64,000 nucleotides of DNA from Mycolicibacter hiberniae. GTDB taxonomy: Bacteria > Actinomycetota > Actinomycetes > Mycobacteriales > Mycobacteriaceae. The translations under genes were made by a program, and so were the position numbers. The DNA is taken from the NCBI RefSeq assembly GCF_010729485.1, contig NZ_AP022609.1, forward strand, positions 2,356,001 to 2,420,000, given 5' to 3'. Under the pieces are notes generated by a model. It did not search any database and was not told the DNA's origin. It saw nothing but the letters and a program-made list of their open reading frames with translations. Shown here one piece after another: positions 2,309 through 26,172 of this stretch (positions within the stretch are counted from its first letter, which is position 1; the number at the start of each line of letters is the position of its first letter).

Positions 2309-3784
2309 GTGACCACGATCAGCACGCCGCGTTACCTGCTGGACCAGGCTAAGCGCCGCTTCGTCCCCACAGTCAACACCATCCCCGGGATGGGGTTGCT
2401 GGAAAAGCGGCTGATGAGCGTCGACTGGCCGCAGAAGACGTTGGCGGCTCCCCCGGCGGGCAGCGGCCTCAAGCCCATCGTCGGCGACTCCGGTCTGCCG
2501 CTGCTGGGGCACATCGTCGAGATGTTCCGCCAGGGCCCGGACTTCCCGCTGCACCTGTACAACACGCGCGGACCGATCACCTTCGCCGACTCGCCCATCC
2601 TGCCGTCGATCGTCGCGCTGGGACCGGACGCCACCCAGACGATCTTCACGAACAAGAACAAGGACTTTTCGCAGAAGGGCTGGCTCCCGGTGATCGGGCC
2701 GTTCTTCAACCGCGGCCTGATGATGCTGGAGTTCGACGAGCACATGGCGCACCGGCGGATCATGCAGTCCGCCTTCACCCGGCCCCGGCTGGCCAGCTAC
2801 GTCGAGGACATCGACCGGGTGGCGTCGGCGATCGTGGCCGGCTGGCCCACCGACGACAACCGCTTCCTGGTGTACCCGGCCATGAAGGAACTGACCCTCG
2901 ACGTCGCATCGGTGGTGTTCATGGGCCACGAGCCGGGCAGCGATCACCAGCTGGTCACCAAGGTCAACCGCGCCTTCGAGCAGACCACCCGGGCCGGCGG
3001 CGCGATCATCCGCACCGGGGTGCCGCCGTTCAAATGGTGGCAGGGTCTGCAGGGCCGGAAGCTGCTCGAGGAGTACTTCGTCGAGCGGGTCAAGGAGCGC
3101 CGTAACGCCGAGGGCAACGACATGCTGACAGTGCTCTGTCACACCGCGGATGACGACGGCAACAGCTTCTCCGACGAAGACATCGTCAACCACATGATCT
3201 TCCTGATGATGGCTGCTCACGACACCACCACCTCGACCGTGACCACCATGATCTACCACCTGGCCGCCCACCAGGACTGGCAGGACCGGGCCCGGGACGA
3301 ATCGGCCCGGCATGGCGACGCGCCGCTGGACATCGAGGCCCTGGAAAAGCTGGAGACCCTCGACCTGGTGATGGACGAGTCGCTGCGGCTGGTGACCCCG
3401 CTGCCGTTCAACATGCGCCAAACCGTGCGCGACACCGACCTGCTGGGCTACTACGTGCCGGCCGGCACCAACGTGGTCACCTGGCCCGGGATGAACCACT
3501 GGCTGCCCGAGCTCTACACCAACCCGCGGCAGTTCGACCCCGAGCGGTTCCTCGAGCCGCGCTCGGAGCACAAGAAGCACCGCTACGCCTGGGCCCCGTT
3601 CGGCGGCGGTGCCCACAAGTGCATCGGAATGGTGTTCGGCCGCCTCGAGATCAAGACGGTGCTGCACCGGTTGCTGCGCCAGTACCGGATCGAGCTGGCC
3701 CACCCGGGCTACCAGCCGCGCTGGGACTACGGCGGCATGCCCATCCCGATGGACGGGATGCCGATCGTGCTGCGCCGGCTCTAG
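2309..3784 (+). CDS. cyp136: Cytochrome P450, CYP136 type (copy 1)
   Basis: A 491-residue P450 resembling M. tuberculosis CYP136 (Rv3059) over its whole length, including the N terminus (YLLDQAKRRF). The I-helix oxygen-binding motif is AAHDTTTS near residue 310, the K-helix ExxR is ESLR near 356, and the heme loop FGGGAHKCIG has its Cys ligand at residue 438. The start is GTG 2309 with an AAGGAG ribosome site at 2298-2303. A haem monooxygenase of this kind needs ferredoxin and a reductase; neither is adjacent, although fprA lies 30 kb away. The substrate of CYP136 is not established. It is followed in tandem by a second, clearly related copy with its own copy of the promoter. Confidence 0.93.
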   Translation: MTTISTPRYLLDQAKRRFVPTVNTIPGMGLLEKRLMSVDWPQKTLAAPPAGSGLKPIVGDSGLPLLGHIVEMFRQGPDFPLHLYNTRGPITFADSPILPSIVALGPDATQTIFTNKNKDFSQKGWLPVIGPFFNRGLMMLEFDEHMAHRRIMQSAFTRPRLASYVEDIDRVASAIVAGWPTDDNRFLVYPAMKELTLDVASVVFMGHEPGSDHQLVTKVNRAFEQTTRAGGAIIRTGVPPFKWWQGLQGRKLLEEYFVERVKERRNAEGNDMLTVLCHTADDDGNSFSDEDIVNHMIFLMMAAHDTTTSTVTTMIYHLAAHQDWQDRARDESARHGDAPLDIEALEKLETLDLVMDESLRLVTPLPFNMRQTVRDTDLLGYYVPAGTNVVTWPGMNHWLPELYTNPRQFDPERFLEPRSEHKKHRYAWAPFGGGAHKCIGMVFGRLEIKTVLHRLLRQYRIELAHPGYQPRWDYGGMPIPMDGMPIVLRRL

Positions 3785-3866
3785 TTCCCGCACCTGGCAC
3801 ATCAGCTCCTGACACGCCCGCGCCACGCGGCTCGGGACTTCGCGCGTCGCCACGCTGCGATCAGCC

Positions 3867-3895
3867 TTGACAGTCGTCAAGTTTGATCCAAGGAT
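3867..3895 (+). promoter_or_regulatory. Duplicate promoter-operator before second CYP136 gene
   Basis: The palindrome TTGAC-AGTC-GTCAA is at 3867-3880, with TTGACA as the -35 (3867-3872), a 17-base spacer and AAGGAT (3890-3895) as a weak -10. It matches the block at 2228-2256 in motif, spacing and downstream bases (both continue into a CAAGTGACGG stretch and end with a GGAGCG ribosome site). The duplication that made the two P450s evidently included the control region. Confidence 0.6.
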
Positions 3896-3948
3896 TGGCG
3901 ATCAAGTGACGGGCGCCACAGCCCGTCGGGCGCGTCAAAGGAGCGTCA

Positions 3949-5427
3949 GTGACGACGATCAGCACGCCGCAGTATCTGATCGACCAGGCCAAGCGCCGGT
4001 TCACGCCGTCGTTCAACAACTTTCCCGGTATGGGGGCGCTGGAAAAGCGGCTGTTGAACATGGAGTTCCCGGAGAAGAAGCTCGCCGAGCCGCCCCCAGG
4101 CAGTGGCCTCAAGCCGGTCCTCGGCGACTCCGGGCTGCCCATCCTGGGGCACATGATCGAGTGGCTGCGCGGCGGCCCGGACTACCTGATGCGCCAGTAC
4201 CACACTCACGGCCCACTGTTGTTCGGTGATTCGCCTGTGTTGCCCACCGTTGCAGCGCTGGGACCCGATGCGACGCAGGCCATCTACTCCAACCGCAACA
4301 AGGACTATTCGCAACAGGGATGGGTCCCGGTGATCGGGCCGTTTTTCAACCGGGGGCTGATGCTGCTGGATTTCGAGGAACACCTGTTCCATCGCAGGAT
4401 CATGCAGGAGGCGTTCGTCCGACCCCGCCTCGTCAGCTACGTCGAACAGATCGACCGGGTCGCCTCCCAGGTGATCGCCGACGACTGGGTCACCGATGAC
4501 CCCCGCTTCCTGCTCCACCCAGCGATGAAGGAACTCACCCTCGACATCGCCGCGCTGGTGTTCATGGGACATGAGCCCGGCACCGACCATGAGCTGGTCA
4601 CGAAGGTCAACAAGGCGTTCACCACGACCACCCGCTCCGGCAACGCAGTGATCCGAACCAGCGTGCCGCCCTTCGCATGGTGGCGTGGCCTCAAGGCCCG
4701 TGCGCTCCTGGAGGACTACTTCACCGCCCGGGTCCAGGAACACCGCGGCAAAGAGGGCGACGACCTCCTCACGGCGCTGTGCTATGCCGAAGACGAGGAC
4801 GGCAACCGATTCTCCGACACCGACATCGTCAACCACATGATTTTTCTGATGATGGCAGCCCACGACACGTCGACGTCGGCAGCCACCTCCATGGTCTATA
4901 ACCTGGCCCGCAACCCGGAATGGCAGCAACGCTGCCGTGACGAATCGGATCGCCTGGGCGATGGACCGCTCGACATCGAGTCCCTGGAGAAGCTGGAATC
5001 GCTGGATTTGGTGATGGACGAATCAATCCGCCTGGTAACGCCGGTGCAGTGGGCGATGCGCCAGACCGTCCGCGACACCGAACTCCTGGGCTACTTCCTG
5101 CCTGAGGGCACCAATGTCATCGCCTACCCGGGAGTGAACCACCGTCTTCCTGAGTTGTGGACGGAACCAATGAAATTCGACCCAGACAGGTTCACCGAAC
5201 CGCGTAGCGAGCACAAGCGGCACCGCTACGCGTTCAGTCCGTTCGGCGGCGGTGCGCACAAGTGCATCGGCATGACCTTCGGTCGGCTTGAGGTCAAGGC
5301 GATCGTGCACCGGTTGCTACGACGGTACCGGCTGGAGTTGCCGCGTCCCGACTATCAGACACGCTGGGACTACGGCGGCATGCCCATTCCGGCGGACGGG
5401 ATGCCGATCGTCTTGCGCCGGCTTTAG
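3949..5427 (+). CDS. cyp136: Cytochrome P450, CYP136 type (copy 2)
   Basis: A 492-residue P450 close to copy 1 and, at the N terminus and heme region, even closer to what I recall of Rv3059 (RRFTPSFNNFPGM; QWAMRQTVRDTELLGY). The I-helix motif AAHDTSTS lies near residue 311, ESIR near 357, and the heme Cys at residue 439 in FGGGAHKCIG. GTG 3949 is the start, preceded by AAAGGAG. It has its own promoter-operator, so the two copies are probably controlled by the same regulator but transcribed separately. The copies differ at active-site-flanking positions (LPFNMRQ in copy 1, VQWAMRQ here), which suggests divergent substrate choice. Haem monooxygenase, substrate unknown. Confidence 0.93.
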   Translation: MTTISTPQYLIDQAKRRFTPSFNNFPGMGALEKRLLNMEFPEKKLAEPPPGSGLKPVLGDSGLPILGHMIEWLRGGPDYLMRQYHTHGPLLFGDSPVLPTVAALGPDATQAIYSNRNKDYSQQGWVPVIGPFFNRGLMLLDFEEHLFHRRIMQEAFVRPRLVSYVEQIDRVASQVIADDWVTDDPRFLLHPAMKELTLDIAALVFMGHEPGTDHELVTKVNKAFTTTTRSGNAVIRTSVPPFAWWRGLKARALLEDYFTARVQEHRGKEGDDLLTALCYAEDEDGNRFSDTDIVNHMIFLMMAAHDTSTSAATSMVYNLARNPEWQQRCRDESDRLGDGPLDIESLEKLESLDLVMDESIRLVTPVQWAMRQTVRDTELLGYFLPEGTNVIAYPGVNHRLPELWTEPMKFDPDRFTEPRSEHKRHRYAFSPFGGGAHKCIGMTFGRLEVKAIVHRLLRRYRLELPRPDYQTRWDYGGMPIPADGMPIVLRRL

Positions 5428-5458
5428 TTTCCGCCGCCGCTCGCCACGCTGACGTCGC

Positions 5459-5926
5459 TCACCCTGCCGTCAACAGCCGATTGACGCACGTGACGACGGC
5501 ATCCACAGCCGATGCCCCGGCGTCGGGCGCGAAGCCCACCGCCCAGGCCGCCGTCCGGCCATTGGACCCGTGGATGAAGGTTGCTATCTCGTTGCCGCAA
5601 CCAAGCTGATGAAACCCCAGAATTTCCACTGTGATTCCGCGCTCGTACAGCATCTCGGTGAGCGCTGCCAGCGGGCCGTGCGCCGCCGCGGTGCAGGTGC
5701 CGGTTCGGTCTCCCAGGGCGATCGTCGCCTGGTAGGTGCGGCCCCGTAGCCCCAGCCGTGCCGCGGGCCGGTCGGCGTCCAGGCAGCGCCACCGGCCCAG
5801 CCGCAGGGGCCCGGCGCAGCGGCCATAGGCCGCCACGAAACCGTCCCAGCTGAGCTGGGCGGCCGGATCCTGCAGTTCGCGCGGGAGCCGGGTCTGGAAT
5901 TGGTCCGCAAAGGATGTGCTGCTCAT
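5459..5926 (-). CDS. Stand-alone LeuA regulatory-domain-like protein
   Basis: A 155-residue protein. The region from about residue 60 (GRTYQATIALGDRTGTC) to the end (WAVGFAPDAG...AVVTCVNRLL) resembles the C-terminal allosteric, leucine-binding domain of 2-isopropylmalate synthase (LeuA): an ATI/G strand, HGPLAALTEML helix, EILGFHQLGCGNEIATFIHG, then a closing helix ending VNRLL. The catalytic TIM barrel is absent. Such a protein could bind leucine or a related amino acid, or modulate the full-length synthase; that is inference. A 14-codon leader peptide rich in Leu/Val and a long hairpin lie just upstream (5963-6045), which strongly favours amino-acid-dependent control. It converges with the P450 gene. 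Family moderately sure, function unknown. Confidence 0.6.
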   Translation of the reverse strand: MSSTSFADQFQTRLPRELQDPAAQLSWDGFVAAYGRCAGPLRLGRWRCLDADRPAARLGLRGRTYQATIALGDRTGTCTAAAHGPLAALTEMLYERGITVEILGFHQLGCGNEIATFIHGSNGRTAAWAVGFAPDAGASAVDAVVTCVNRLLTAG

Positions 5927-5962
5927 GGTGCGGTCTTTTCTTCTCGGGAGAGCGACCGACGG

Positions 5963-6030
5963 GTAGTAGCTTCCGACCCACAGCGGGGGTCGGTCTTGGA
6001 TCAGACCCCGCTGCGGGTGCCGGCTACTAC
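5963..6030 (-). promoter_or_regulatory. Attenuator-like inverted repeat before the LeuA-like gene
   Basis: Arms GTAGTAGC (5963-5970) and GCTACTAC (6023-6030) pair perfectly. Inside them, 5977-5991 pairs with 6004-6017 with one mismatch and one bulge, and GGTCT/AGACC (5992-5996 with 6003-6007) closes the apex. A competing hairpin, CCGACCC (5973-5979) with GGGTCGG (5987-5993), uses part of one arm, so the two folds exclude each other. The Val-Val codons of the leader peptide form the base of the long stem. There is no clear U-run, so the output may be translational or through a non-canonical terminator. Confidence 0.65.
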
Positions 6031-6045
6031 GAGAAGATGACGCAT
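6001..6045 (-). CDS. Leader peptide MRHLLVVAGTRSGV
   Basis: A 14-codon reading frame starting ATG at 6045 and ending TGA at 6003-6001. Its fourth to seventh codons are Leu (CTT), Leu (CTC), Val (GTA), Val (GTA), directly in front of the hairpin that precedes the LeuA-like gene. Small leader peptides with runs of regulatory codons are the hallmark of ribosome-mediated attenuation, and leader-linked RNA elements are known upstream of actinobacterial leuA genes. A ribosome waiting for charged tRNA-Leu or tRNA-Val would hold the 5' arm open. There is no strong ribosome site, but a promoter-like pair places the RNA start about three bases before the ATG, giving a near-leaderless message. Confidence 0.65.
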   Translation of the reverse strand: MRHLLVVAGTRSGV

Positions 6046-6054
6046 GATCACACC

Positions 6055-6084
6055 AGGCTAGTGGCCGCTGCGACCGGTGTGCAA
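6055..6084 (-). promoter_or_regulatory. Possible promoter of the leader peptide
   Basis: On the minus strand, TTGCAC (6084-6079), an 18-base spacer and TAGCCT (6060-6055) fit a mycobacterial -35 and TANNNT -10. Transcription would start near 6048, three bases before the leader ATG. It lies within the 67-base gap after the poxB stop codon. Confidence 0.4.
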
Positions 6085-6112
6085 GAGATTTATGGCCGAC
6101 GCCCGTATCGGC

Positions 6113-7849
6113 TCAACTCAAGATGCGACGCGCCACGTTGGTGCTCACCAAATCCAGCAGTTCGTCGCCGCGACCGGCCAGGACGGTGCGGATCGCGTAG
6201 AGCGAGAACCCTTTGGCCTGTTCGGCGGTGATGGCCGGGGGGATCGTCAGTTCCTGGCGGGCGGTCACCACGTCAACGACAGCCGGACCGTCGTAGGCGA
6301 AGGCCTCGGTCAGTGCCGCCTCGAGGTGCCCCGGCTGCTCCACCCGCCGCCCGAACATGCCCAGGGCCGCGGCGACGGCGCTGAAATCCGGATTGGTCAA
6401 CTCGGTGCCGAAGGTGACGATGCCGGCGGCCTTCATCTCCAGCTCGACGAAGTTCAGCGACGAGTTGTTGAACACGATCACCTTGACCGGCAAGCGATTC
6501 TGCATCAGCGTGAGCAGCTCACCGAACCCCATGGCCAGTCCCCCATCGCCGGCCAACGCGACAACCTGACGCTGTTTGTCCACCGACTGGGCGCCGATCG
6601 CATGCGGTAGCGCGCACGCCATGGTGCCGTGGTTGAACGACCCGATAAGCCGTCGTGGCCCGTTCATGGTGAGGTAGCGCGCCGCCCACACCACCGGCGA
6701 GCCGACGTCGACGGTGAACACCGCGTCGTCGGCGGCAAGCCGATCAGCCACCGCGGCAACGTATTCCGGACGTATCGGGGTGCGGTCCCGATCGTTGGAC
6801 GCCAGCGCGTCGAGTCCCCGGCGGGTCTTGCGGTAGTGCTTGAGCGATTTCTCCAGGTGAGCGGAGTCGGTCTTGTCCACCAGCAGCGGCCGTAACGCGC
6901 CCACGGTGTCGGCGACCCGACCGCGTAACCCGAGGTCGATCGGAGTGCGCCGGCCGAGGTTGCGGCCACGGATATCGACTTGGATGATCTGCGCACGGTC
7001 GGGATAGAACTGCTGGTAGGGGAAGTCGGTGCCGAGCATCAGCAGCACATCGGCTTCCCGGATCGCCTTGTAGCCGGAGGCGAATCCGAGCAGCCCGGTC
7101 ATGCCGACGTCGTAGGGATTGTCGTATTCGATGTACTCCTTGCCCCGCAGGGCGTGCACTATCGGGGCCTGCAGGGTGCGCGCCAGCTCGATCACCTGGT
7201 CGTGGGCGCCGGCTACCCCGGCGCCGGCCAGGATGGTCACGTTGCCGGCCGCGTTGAGCATCGCAGCGGCTGCGCGCAGCGCGTGCGCGTCGGGGTGGCA
7301 CACCGATGCGGTGGGCAGCACCGGGCGCACTCCCCAGGCGGTCTGGTCGAGCCGGTGGCCGAGGATCTCACCCGGTACCACCACGACGGCGACGTCGTTC
7401 TCCTCGACCGCCGCCCGCATCGCCAGGTCCAGGATGCGCGGCGCCTGCTGGGGCCCGCCGATCAGCTCGCAGTAGACGCTGCATTCCCGGAACAGGTCCT
7501 GCGGGTGGGTTTCCTGGAAGTAGTCGGAGCCGATCTCGGCCAGCGGAATGTGGGCGGCGATCGCCAGCACCGGCACCCTGCTGCGATGCGCGTCGAACAG
7601 GCCGTTGATCAGGTGCAGGTTGCCCGGTCCGCAACTGCCGGCGCATACCGACAGCCGACCGCGAAGCGCCGCCTCCGCGGCTGCGGCGAAAGCAGCGGAC
7701 TCCTCGTGGCGCACCTGTTCCCAGGCGACGTCGCCGGCCCGGCGGATCGCGTCGGTGAGCCCGTTGAGGCTGTCGCCGGGAATCCCGAAGATGCGCTGCA
7801 CCCCGCTGCGGTGGAGGGTGGCGACGACATGATCTGCGACGGTAGCCAT
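6113..7849 (-). CDS. poxB: Pyruvate dehydrogenase (quinone), PoxB type
   Basis: A 578-residue thiamine-diphosphate enzyme that closely follows E. coli PoxB. It has the activating Glu in RHEESAAFAAAAEA near residue 50, GSCGPGNLHLINGLFDAHRS, HALRGKEYIEYDNPYDVGM in the FAD domain, and the TPP/Mg motif GDGG...NNSSLNF around 435-465. It would oxidise pyruvate to acetate and CO2 and pass electrons to the quinone pool as a peripheral membrane enzyme. The C terminus retains the IPPAITAEQAKGFSLYAIR segment that matches the PoxB lipid-activated tail region. The start is ATG 7849 with a strong GAGGAGG site just upstream, rather than the longer frame to 7876. The leader peptide and LeuA-like gene follow on the same strand. 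Confidence 0.92.
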   Translation of the reverse strand: MATVADHVVATLHRSGVQRIFGIPGDSLNGLTDAIRRAGDVAWEQVRHEESAAFAAAAEAALRGRLSVCAGSCGPGNLHLINGLFDAHRSRVPVLAIAAHIPLAEIGSDYFQETHPQDLFRECSVYCELIGGPQQAPRILDLAMRAAVEENDVAVVVVPGEILGHRLDQTAWGVRPVLPTASVCHPDAHALRAAAAMLNAAGNVTILAGAGVAGAHDQVIELARTLQAPIVHALRGKEYIEYDNPYDVGMTGLLGFASGYKAIREADVLLMLGTDFPYQQFYPDRAQIIQVDIRGRNLGRRTPIDLGLRGRVADTVGALRPLLVDKTDSAHLEKSLKHYRKTRRGLDALASNDRDRTPIRPEYVAAVADRLAADDAVFTVDVGSPVVWAARYLTMNGPRRLIGSFNHGTMACALPHAIGAQSVDKQRQVVALAGDGGLAMGFGELLTLMQNRLPVKVIVFNNSSLNFVELEMKAAGIVTFGTELTNPDFSAVAAALGMFGRRVEQPGHLEAALTEAFAYDGPAVVDVVTARQELTIPPAITAEQAKGFSLYAIRTVLAGRGDELLDLVSTNVARRILS

Positions 7850-7925
7850 GTCCGTCCTCCTCAAGCGAGGCTGCAACGGTGTGCGTGCCGAAGGGTGATA
7901 CCCCCGGCACGCACACCGGCAAACG

Positions 7926-17841: not shown

Positions 17842-17914
17842 TGGAGCTAAGGGGACTCGAACCCCTGACCCCCACACTGCCAGTGTGGTGCGCTACCAGC
17901 TGCGCCATAGCCCC
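17842..17914 (-). tRNA. alaV: tRNA-Ala (GGC)
   Basis: Read on the minus strand, the acceptor stem GGGGCTA pairs with TAGCTCC (one G-U), the T arm is AGGGGTTCGAGTCCCCT, and the anticodon arm is CCACA-CTGGCAG-TGTGG with anticodon GGC. It is 73 bases long without an encoded CCA. It reads the GCC/GCU alanine codons, the dominant class in this GC-rich genome. The symbol is only a generic tRNA-Ala label. Confidence 0.93.
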
Positions 17915-25781: not shown

Positions 25782-25787
25782 CAGTTG

Positions 25788-26172
25788 TGGAGCTGCCGGG
25801 AATCGAACCCGGGTCCTACGGCATTCCCTCAAGACTTCTCCGTGCGCAGTTCGCTATGTCTCTACTTGGATCTCCCGGTCACGCGAACAAGCCGAGATGA
25901 CGATCCCAGTCGCTGTTGGTGTCCCGATACATCCCGCGACCGGACGTATCGGTGGATCCCTCTAGTCGATGCCAGGGTCCGGGCCGAGGGAGGTCCCGGT
26001 CTGACAGGCCCGCCTCGCTTAGGCAGCGAGGGCGAAGTCGCTCTGAAGAGCGACCTTAGCCGGCGTAAGTGCCTTGGCGCTTACTTGTTTACAGCGACGC
26101 TTACGGTGGTCTCCTGCCTGCACCGGCACGCTTCCCTTGATTCGACACACGCAGTCGAAACCTTTCAGCCCC
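25788..26172 (-). ncRNA. ssrA: Transfer-messenger RNA (tmRNA)
   Basis: About 385 bases. The 5' GGGGCTG pairs with the 3' CAGCTCC of the tRNA-like domain, and the T arm with GGGTTCGATTCCC is present; no CCA is encoded. The 3' half closely matches my recollection of M. tuberculosis ssrA. The tag frame, starting at GCC 26078-26076 in the context GTAAGC-GCC (as in M. tuberculosis), stays open for 19 codons to TAA 26021-26019 and encodes AKALTPAKVALQSDFALAA. The M. tuberculosis tag as I know it is 12 residues (ADSHQRDYALAA). The extra codons include a 7-bp hairpin (26037-26054). With SmpB it rescues stalled ribosomes and marks their products for proteolysis. smpB lies 3 kb away on the same strand. 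Confidence 0.95.

Follow-up and report, generated by a model that had tools for sequence, protein, structure and literature searches.

A putative LEU-element variant with a leucine-valine leader upstream of a stand-alone LeuA-type regulatory domain gene in mycobacteria

On the minus strand of the Mycolicibacter hiberniae genome, a small gene is preceded by a short reading frame with consecutive leucine and valine codons and by an RNA segment that could fold in more than one way, which raises the question of whether the gene is under the control of a translated leader and, if so, what such a leader regulates. We addressed this in a window of 64,000 nucleotides (the whole stretch of DNA that was analysed), part of a 4.4 Mb single-contig genome. 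A sequence-only reading of the locus had proposed ribosome-mediated attenuation of a stand-alone sensor-like domain, with a 14-codon leader, a 68-base inverted repeat whose 5' arm holds the valine codons, a competing inner hairpin and a nearly leaderless start.

Layout of the locus and distribution of the gene

The following features were placed on the minus strand (window coordinates):

6055-6084, minus: promoter-like sequence seen by eye, with -35-like TTGCAC (6084-6079), an 18-base spacer and -10 TAGCCT (6060-6055)
6001-6045, minus: leader reading frame of 14 codons, MRHLLVVAGTRSGV and a stop, with Leu-Leu-Val-Val at 6036-6025
6030-6037, minus: 5' strand of stem P1, TCTTCTCG (leucine codons), with its partner at 5946-5939 at the ribosome-binding site (8 pairs; minimum free energy fold)
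6023-6030, minus: 5' strand of stem P2, GTAGTAGC (Val-Val-Ala codons), with its partner at 5970-5963
6006-6016, minus: 5' strand of stem P3, CCGCAGCGGGG, with its partner at 5988-5978
5989-5995, minus: 5' strand of the pseudoknot, GACCGAC, in the loop, 5 bases 3' of the leader stop
5978-5988, minus: 3' strand of P3, CCCCGCTGTGG
5963-5970, minus: 3' strand of P2, GCTACTAC
5954-5960, minus: 3' strand of the pseudoknot, GTCGGTC; alternatively, its CGGTC with GACCG (5935-5931) before the start codon
5931-5946, minus: ribosome-binding region CGAGAAGAAAAGACCG, made up of the P1 3' strand CGAGAAGA (5946-5939) and the competitor GACCG (5935-5931)
5459-5926, minus: gene for a 155-aa stand-alone relative of the LeuA C-terminal regulatory domain, without a catalytic domain

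The leader runs from an ATG (6045-6043) to a TGA (6003-6001) and encodes M R H L L V V A G T R S G V, as had been proposed. The 68-base inverted repeat was likewise found, and corresponds to P2 (6030-6023 with 5970-5963), GTAGTAGC pairing with GCTACTAC and enclosing P3 (CCGCAGCGGGG with CCCCGCTGTGG); the inner hairpin CCGACCC/GGGTCGG is present at 5993-5973. The predicted fold of 6048-5910 had a free energy of -55.5 kcal/mol, compared to -40.7 (sd 3.7) in 200 shuffled sequences (z = -4.0), none of which was as low. The box TAGCCT does stand nine bases before the ATG, and a sigma-70 consensus promoter scan listed no promoter at 6055-6084. The pseudoknot GACCGAC:GTCGGTC, the P1 pairing at the ribosome-binding site and a related element at the leuA of the same genome had no counterpart in the sequence-only reading.

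Two adjacent, similar P450-like genes (window 2309-5427, plus strand) are convergent to the small gene, and a gene for a poxB-like ubiquinone-dependent pyruvate dehydrogenase (6113-7876, minus strand) lies upstream of the leader. Among 80 named loci, 68 had full flanks, and in these a convergent P450 was the 3' neighbour of the small gene in 68 of 68, while the poxB-like gene was upstream in only 25 of 68. An operon with the poxB-like gene was rejected on these counts, and because the upstream neighbour varies in this way while the P450 is constant, we assign the leader to the small gene.

The 155-aa protein matched the tail of the NCBIfam LeuA model (456-562 of 564, E 8.8e-7), far below the cut-off of that model, and scored 14 bits against PF08502 (LeuA_dimer), below the gathering cut-off of 24.9, while 36 of 40 relatives matched PF08502 at E values up to 0.1 (best 2.3e-6). 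In hhalign comparisons, the family aligned with the LeuA C-terminal domain (11 sequences) at E 4.9e-10 and with the C-terminal domain of a second LeuA paralogue (6 sequences) at E 2.5e-15. Profile scores also favored the paralogue, both as means of 40 members (43.9 bits, vs 23.7 bits for LeuA) and for the window protein (40.5 vs 31.6 bits). A PDB sequence search with the single protein returned nothing at 1e-3, and a search with the profile returned only the Mycobacterium tuberculosis LeuA (E 0.008). By these comparisons, the protein is distantly related to the LeuA C-terminal domain and occurs on its own, with the domain of the second paralogue as its nearest kin; it shares profile kinship with the allosteric (dimerisation) domain of LeuA described by PF08502, but falls below the Pfam cut-off and carries no catalytic domain. 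The view of the gene as a stand-alone domain of LeuA-regulatory type thus agrees with NCBIfam, Pfam and profile comparison alike, and we infer that it may have arisen from the second LeuA paralogue via loss of the enzyme part. The only name given by NCBI, 'homocitrate synthase' (on 7 among the 120 homologues listed), is likely a misannotation of a LeuA-type C-terminal domain without a catalytic domain.

We sought the small protein in 297 genomes of the genus and obtained matches in 290. Of these, 28 had E values of only 9.7e-9 to 7.8e-4, as seen for the LeuA enzyme; by count from the match table, the stand-alone protein was present in 262 of the 297 genomes, with E values no higher than 6.3e-18. 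Judged by this protein, the nearest named relatives were Mycolicibacter engbaekii (94% identity), heraklionensis (90%) and nonchromogenicus (89%). Upstream DNA was examined for 88 of the 262 (29 + 59 loci, picked from the best-scoring rows), and the element was upstream of the gene in all 88, with 85 located by pattern and three (L009, L075 and L086) carrying single changes in GGTCTGA that place them outside it. The element was also found in four of four lower-scoring genus loci (L263-L266) and in 11 of 15 loci from other genera of the family (L248, L249, L252-L257 and L259-L261). Two of the remaining loci, L250 and L251 from a small-genome genus, showed by eye a stem and pseudoknot of the same arrangement but different sequence (GGACTAACC:GGTTGGTCC and GGACTGACC:GGTCGGTCC), with few letters in common with the mycobacterial element, and were not picked up by the pattern scripts or by the leuA-only model described below; no element was found in the other two of the 15, L258 and L262. 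In 248 sampled genomes of the order and 148 of the class, no stand-alone form occurred outside this family, and the matches found there were within open frames of 585-673 aa.

Conservation of the leader frame and of the RNA fold

Having located the element in relatives, we can ask whether the leader is a genuine reading frame. In all 85 pattern-located genus loci, a start codon 6-10 bases 3' of a TANNNT box was in frame with the leader stop, and this frame was unique in 84 of them, the remaining locus having one in another frame as well. The frame was kept across leader lengths of 13, 14, 15, 16, 17, 18 or 20 codons and across 12 different distances from leader stop to gene start; in L086, which is not among the 85, the stop is TAA instead of TGA. 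The proposed 14-codon frame is thus retained in 85 of 85 loci, and by its sequence the leader is a genuine reading frame. In 72 of the 85 loci, 7 or 8 bases lay between the end of the TANNNT box and the leader start, compared to nine in the window (in this count, the script placed the rows of L028 and L084 on an upstream start). Because of this spacing, we read the leader mRNA as leaderless or nearly so, with its start codon at the promoter-proximal 5' end, much as had been suspected for the window. Outside the genus, the frame from the ATG of L248 stops at a UAG ahead of the usual stop, and the leaders of L254-L256 were cut at a point that is no start codon.

The codons of the leader are unusual. 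Across 80 distinct leader-to-start sequences, comprising 51 distinct leaders and 44 peptides, the 249 valine codons included 157 GTA, 86 GTC, 3 GTG and 3 GTT; the GTC codons were mostly the last codon, which lies inside stem P3. GTA is rare in eight genes of the window (9 of 316 valine codons) compared to these leaders. Both GTA codons were pairable in 39 of the 80 sequences and, in 36 of 80, both were kept though the 3' arm cannot pair with both. The excess of branched-chain codons was modest, with a mean of 3.6 Ile, Leu and Val codons per leader compared to 2.7 expected from window composition. Conservation of the Leu and Val codons in relatives had been put forward as a check by the sequence-only reading: at least two valine codons besides the last codon were present in 83 of 85 leaders, and four of 85 (L005, L006, L063 and L073) lacked a leucine codon. 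Per leader, the stand-alone class had means of 1.4 Leu and 2.1 Val (90 loci), similar figures were found in other genera (1.6 Leu and 2.0 Val; 10 loci), and leuA leaders had 3.1 Leu and 0.8 Val (23 loci). If the leader codons set the signal, the unit would read valine as well as leucine.

The RNA core was nearly invariant in 81 distinct genus sequences, more than expected by chance, although the genus rows were located by a pattern with GGTCTGA and CGGTC and the invariance of those letters is partly by choice. RNAalifold found the stems in the genus alignment, and 0 of 19 pairs had changed on both sides; we therefore rejected the genus-only alignment as proof of the fold. Because the genus sequence is too conserved for covariation, a cross-class alignment was needed, and we assembled 37 hand-chosen sequences (18 from the genus, 9 from other genera and 10 from leuA), cut at a pseudoknot-like motif. 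In this set, P3 was paired in 407 of 407 cells (100%) and had changes on both sides in four pairs. The pseudoknot was paired in 92.2% of cells, with two such pairs, one pseudoknot pair switching from A-U to G-C in 14 sequences and another being unpaired in 22 of 37. P3 and the pseudoknot together were paired in 96.7% of cells, compared to 30-55% in slid controls, and had 42 cells with changes on both sides, compared to 15.5 in shuffled alignments. The number of pairs changed on both sides was 6 vs 4.6 shuffled, a value matched by 6 of 500 shuffles, while further pair types (16 vs 15.7 shuffled, reached by 313 of 500 shuffles) were no better than shuffled. The compensatory changes that the sequence-only reading had looked to are thus absent within the genus, but appear across classes.

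A motif-free check, in which the 14 bases that follow the leader stop were searched for their best stem with the downstream leader, returned the GACC-GGTC pairing in 83 of 85 genus sequences, 11 of 11 sequences of g2, g3, g4 and g7, and 21 of 23 leuA sequences; this best stem exceeded its shuffles (p <= 0.05) in 79 of 85, 7 of 11 (other genera) and 14 of 23, respectively. The inner hairpin at 5993-5973, to which the sequence-only reading had given the role of competitor, was paired in 79% of cells, hardly above its shuffles and less well kept than P3 (100%) or the pseudoknot (92%), the best retained of the long-range features, and was rejected as the main switch. P1 (TCTTCTCG with CGAGAAGA) has its 8 pairs in the window, and exceeded shuffles in 29 of 85 genus sequences, in 1 of 30 within the GTGCC group and in 2 of 23 leuA sequences. 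The competitor pairing of GTCGGTC with GACCG[A/G]C-like letters before the gene start had a best stem of 6.2 compared to 4.3 shuffled, and was above shuffles in 41 of 85 genus sequences at p <= 0.05 and in 4 of 85 at 0.01, with none of 23 leuA, none of 5 g2 and 1 of 8 other sequences above shuffles at p <= 0.05.

Kinship with the LEU element of leuA

An element of this kind is known. Seliverstov et al. (2005, PMC1262725) described the LEU element before leuA of Actinobacteria, made up of a leader reading frame that contains a run of leucine codons, a pseudoknot, and a base stem in which leader codons pair with the ribosome-binding site. A leuA leader frame was reported as ribosome-protected in M. 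abscessus (PMC4974804), and a leuA leader is also reported in Corynebacterium glutamicum (PMC4046766). The leuA of the window genome has a related element of its own, with leader VLRALLLGRRDGV and a stop, and pseudoknot GACCGGC:GCCGGTC. The leuA and stand-alone elements share a leader frame ending within a stem (GGGGUCUGA) and a P3 stem with a pseudoknot, and may share a pairing of leader codons with the ribosome-binding site, which exceeded shuffles in only 29 of 85 genus and 2 of 23 leuA sequences. They keep stem and pseudoknot with different letters (GACCGGC:GCCGGUC at leuA vs GACCGAC:GUCGGUC here). They differ in that the window class adds stem P2, formed from the valine codons, and that its target is a stand-alone regulatory-domain protein, not an enzyme.

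Kinship was also detected by a covariance model (R2) built from 25 leuA leaders only. The window site was the best match of this model in the window (28.3 bits, E 6.5e-5; next 0.12) and, across the 4.4 Mb genome, came second after leuA (E 0.0045; third 0.15), with the match spanning positions 18-58 of 77, that is, P3 and the loop without the pseudoknot 3' strand. Given 25 stand-alone loci, the model recovered 21 of the 21 that bear the element (E <= 2.6e-4) and did not find L250, L251, L258 or L262. Rfam gave no LEU family match at E up to 1 and, elsewhere in the window, placed a tmRNA gene at 25785-26172 and a tRNA gene at 17842-17914, both on the minus strand.

A mixed model located sites in 123 of 199 genomes of the order. 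At 17 of 20 further sites, a LeuA-family enzyme followed in frame (10 leuA and 7 second LeuA paralogues), and at the remaining three (L306, L310 and L316) the script picked another frame. The paralogue sites (L299, L301, L303, L305, L308, L309 and L311) came from several genera, including two mycobacterial genomes (L308 and L309). By eye, their elements have the same stem and pseudoknot layout, with consecutive Leu codons and no Val pair in the leader, unlike the window element, and their target is a LeuA-family enzyme (463-598 aa in the seven loci). These 17 of 20 sites suggest that LEU elements go with LeuA-family genes, the window one going with a stand-alone piece.

Taken by its sequence features, the element is a variant of the LEU element, with a Leu-Val-Val leader and rare GTA codons in place of the leucine run; we file it as a variant because the leader has two Leu then two Val codons, with class means of 1.4 Leu and 2.1 Val and no Leu in four of 85 leaders. 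The sequence-only reading did not know the controlled gene as a described unit. The element belongs to a published type (PMC1262725) and the gene is widespread (262 of 297 genomes), but a search of open-licence PMC listed no report of a stand-alone LeuA domain with such a leader, and the words homocitrate, regulatory domain, paralog and leuA2 were absent in a word search of PMC1262725. For the LEU element itself, described in 2005, we found no settled mechanism.

A possible translational switch and its alternatives

What might the element do? We consider it reasonably probable that this variant LEU element controls the stand-alone LeuA-type regulatory domain as a translational switch set by the charging of leucine and valine tRNA; the leader and RNA would then probably tune the small protein to leucine and valine supply. 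Transcription would start at or just before the leader start codon, and a ribosome loaded at the 5' end would read the leader of 13-20 codons, usually with one or two Leu and two consecutive GTA (Val) codons. The RNA from the Leu/Val codons on would fold into P3, whose loop would pair downstream as the pseudoknot. In the OFF state, base pairs that reach into the ribosome-binding site of the gene, or lie next to it, would be formed by P1 and P2, which include the leader codons, and, in mycobacteria, also by the pseudoknot 3' strand. When charged tRNA suffices, the ribosome would reach the stop and sit over the loop strand 5 bases further on; the pseudoknot could then not form, and GTCGGTC would be available to close off the ribosome-binding region. 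When Leu- or Val-tRNA is scarce, a ribosome halted at codons 4-7 would mask the P1 and P2 strands, the pseudoknot would form, and the gene would open for translation, which amounts to a starvation-ON switch. Only five bases lie between the leader stop and the loop strand, which should therefore be covered by a ribosome at the stop but left bare by one at codons 4-7.

In nested folds, placing a ribosome footprint at the Val codons left the ribosome-binding site more open than placing it at the stop for only 40 of 85 sequences, and ribosome masking alone was rejected as the opener on this inconsistency. When the pseudoknot strands were blocked, the ribosome-binding site was the more open in 77 of 85; the mean unpaired fraction with this block was 0.443, with a control block of the next 7 bases nearly as good (0.407) and other control blocks at 0.246 and 0.266, and the pseudoknot block was the best of the four in 46 of 85. 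Published leader mutants count against the proposed switch: in Streptomyces coelicolor, no effect was reported for codon changes in the leader of ilvB, and the outcome of such changes in that of leuA did not agree with classical attenuation (PMC1262725).

The same mutants, which do not fit classical attenuation at either leuA or ilvB, speak for an alternative that we hold to be unlikely, namely that a regulatory protein binds the RNA and that the leader codons serve only the stem sequences. Seliverstov et al. proposed for leuA a protein binding of this type, by orthologues of the helicase-like ML1624 (PMC1262725), and the very high nucleotide conservation, beyond the needs of pairing, would be consistent with it, although the search for the rows relied on part of this core. 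Against it, 85 of 85 loci retain the leader frame despite seven different leader lengths, both GTA codons are kept in the 36 of 80 sequences where not both are pairable, and the exchange of TGA for TAA in L086 still yields a stop.

A second alternative, which we judge quite unlikely, is that control is exerted on transcription, through a Rho-dependent or weak intrinsic terminator ahead of the gene that the hairpins either constitute or uncover. The ilvB1 leader of M. tuberculosis, proposed to sense 'LVVI' with GUA codons similar to those found here, is described as a transcription attenuator (PMC13236596), Rho-dependent control has been proposed for cys leaders (PMC1262725), and five T in eight bases after the stem were found in 11 of 23 leuA and 4 of 5 g2 sequences. 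However, just 12 of 85 genus sequences had such a T-rich stretch, and a scan of the minus strand at 4500-7500, restricted to loops of 3-8 bases, gave no terminator-like site. Because of the lack of terminator-like sites on this strand and the few T-rich stretches in the genus, control at the level of translation appears more likely than at that of transcription. The ilvB1 attenuator shares its branched-chain codons with the window leader, but has a Rho-independent terminator, of a kind not found here, and acts on transcription (PMC13236596). Of the ribosome-mediated attenuation in the sequence-only reading, the translated branched-chain leader thus holds up (frame in 85 of 85, GTA in 157 of 249), but transcription attenuation of the textbook type is unlikely.

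We regard as highly improbable an aptamer for which leucine, valine or a keto acid is the direct ligand and the reading frame an accident; the compact conserved pseudoknot would suit such a riboswitch, as would the LeuA-family enzyme at every readable target of the 20 further sites (17 of 20), but the frame and rare codons are conserved in the leaders, and Seliverstov et al. judged direct ligand binding unlikely as conserved unpaired bases are lacking (PMC1262725).

For the translational switch that we prefer, the poly-Cys attenuator ORFs of mycobacteria (Canestrari et al. 2020, via PMC9031893) offer a further comparison. These leaderless short ORFs, likewise with consecutive codons of one amino acid, are said to slow the ribosome when Cys is short, and leaderless Cys leaders act as attenuators in M. 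smegmatis (PMC9031893); they differ from the window leader in having Cys codons instead of Leu/Val codons, with a conserved stem and pseudoknot found here. In PMC1262725, conserved hairpins with the potential to be terminators were not found at the mycobacterial cys leaders.

Our findings widen the range of the LEU element from leuA to a small set of LeuA-family genes. They also reveal a natural codon swap, from a Leu run to Leu-Val-Val on the same scaffold, which offers a direct way to test leader translation vs protein binding for LEU elements. In addition, they provide a starting point for finding out what a conserved mycobacterial protein does, one that bears the NCBI name homocitrate synthase though it has no catalytic domain.

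Joint reading of Val and Leu fits, as an inference from the known pathway, a protein that acts where 2-ketoisovalerate is shared between the two. We offer as a tentative and rather doubtful idea that the small protein acts as a dissociable regulatory subunit that descends from the second LeuA through loss of the catalytic domain, with the LEU leader kept. It would join or inhibit a LeuA enzyme at the point where 2-ketoisovalerate is divided and, through its Val-shifted leader, rise in valine (plus leucine) shortage, the LEU elements forming one circuit. If true, the LEU circuit would set both the amount of LeuA and the split of 2-ketoisovalerate between valine and leucine. One genome, G455, fits the subunit role, as a single case, because its second LeuA (L303) ends at 463 aa without a C-terminal domain, with no regulatory domain seen by eye in the three forward frames of the following 700 bases, while a stand-alone domain gene with a LEU element of its own (L257) lies elsewhere, about 135 kb from L303.
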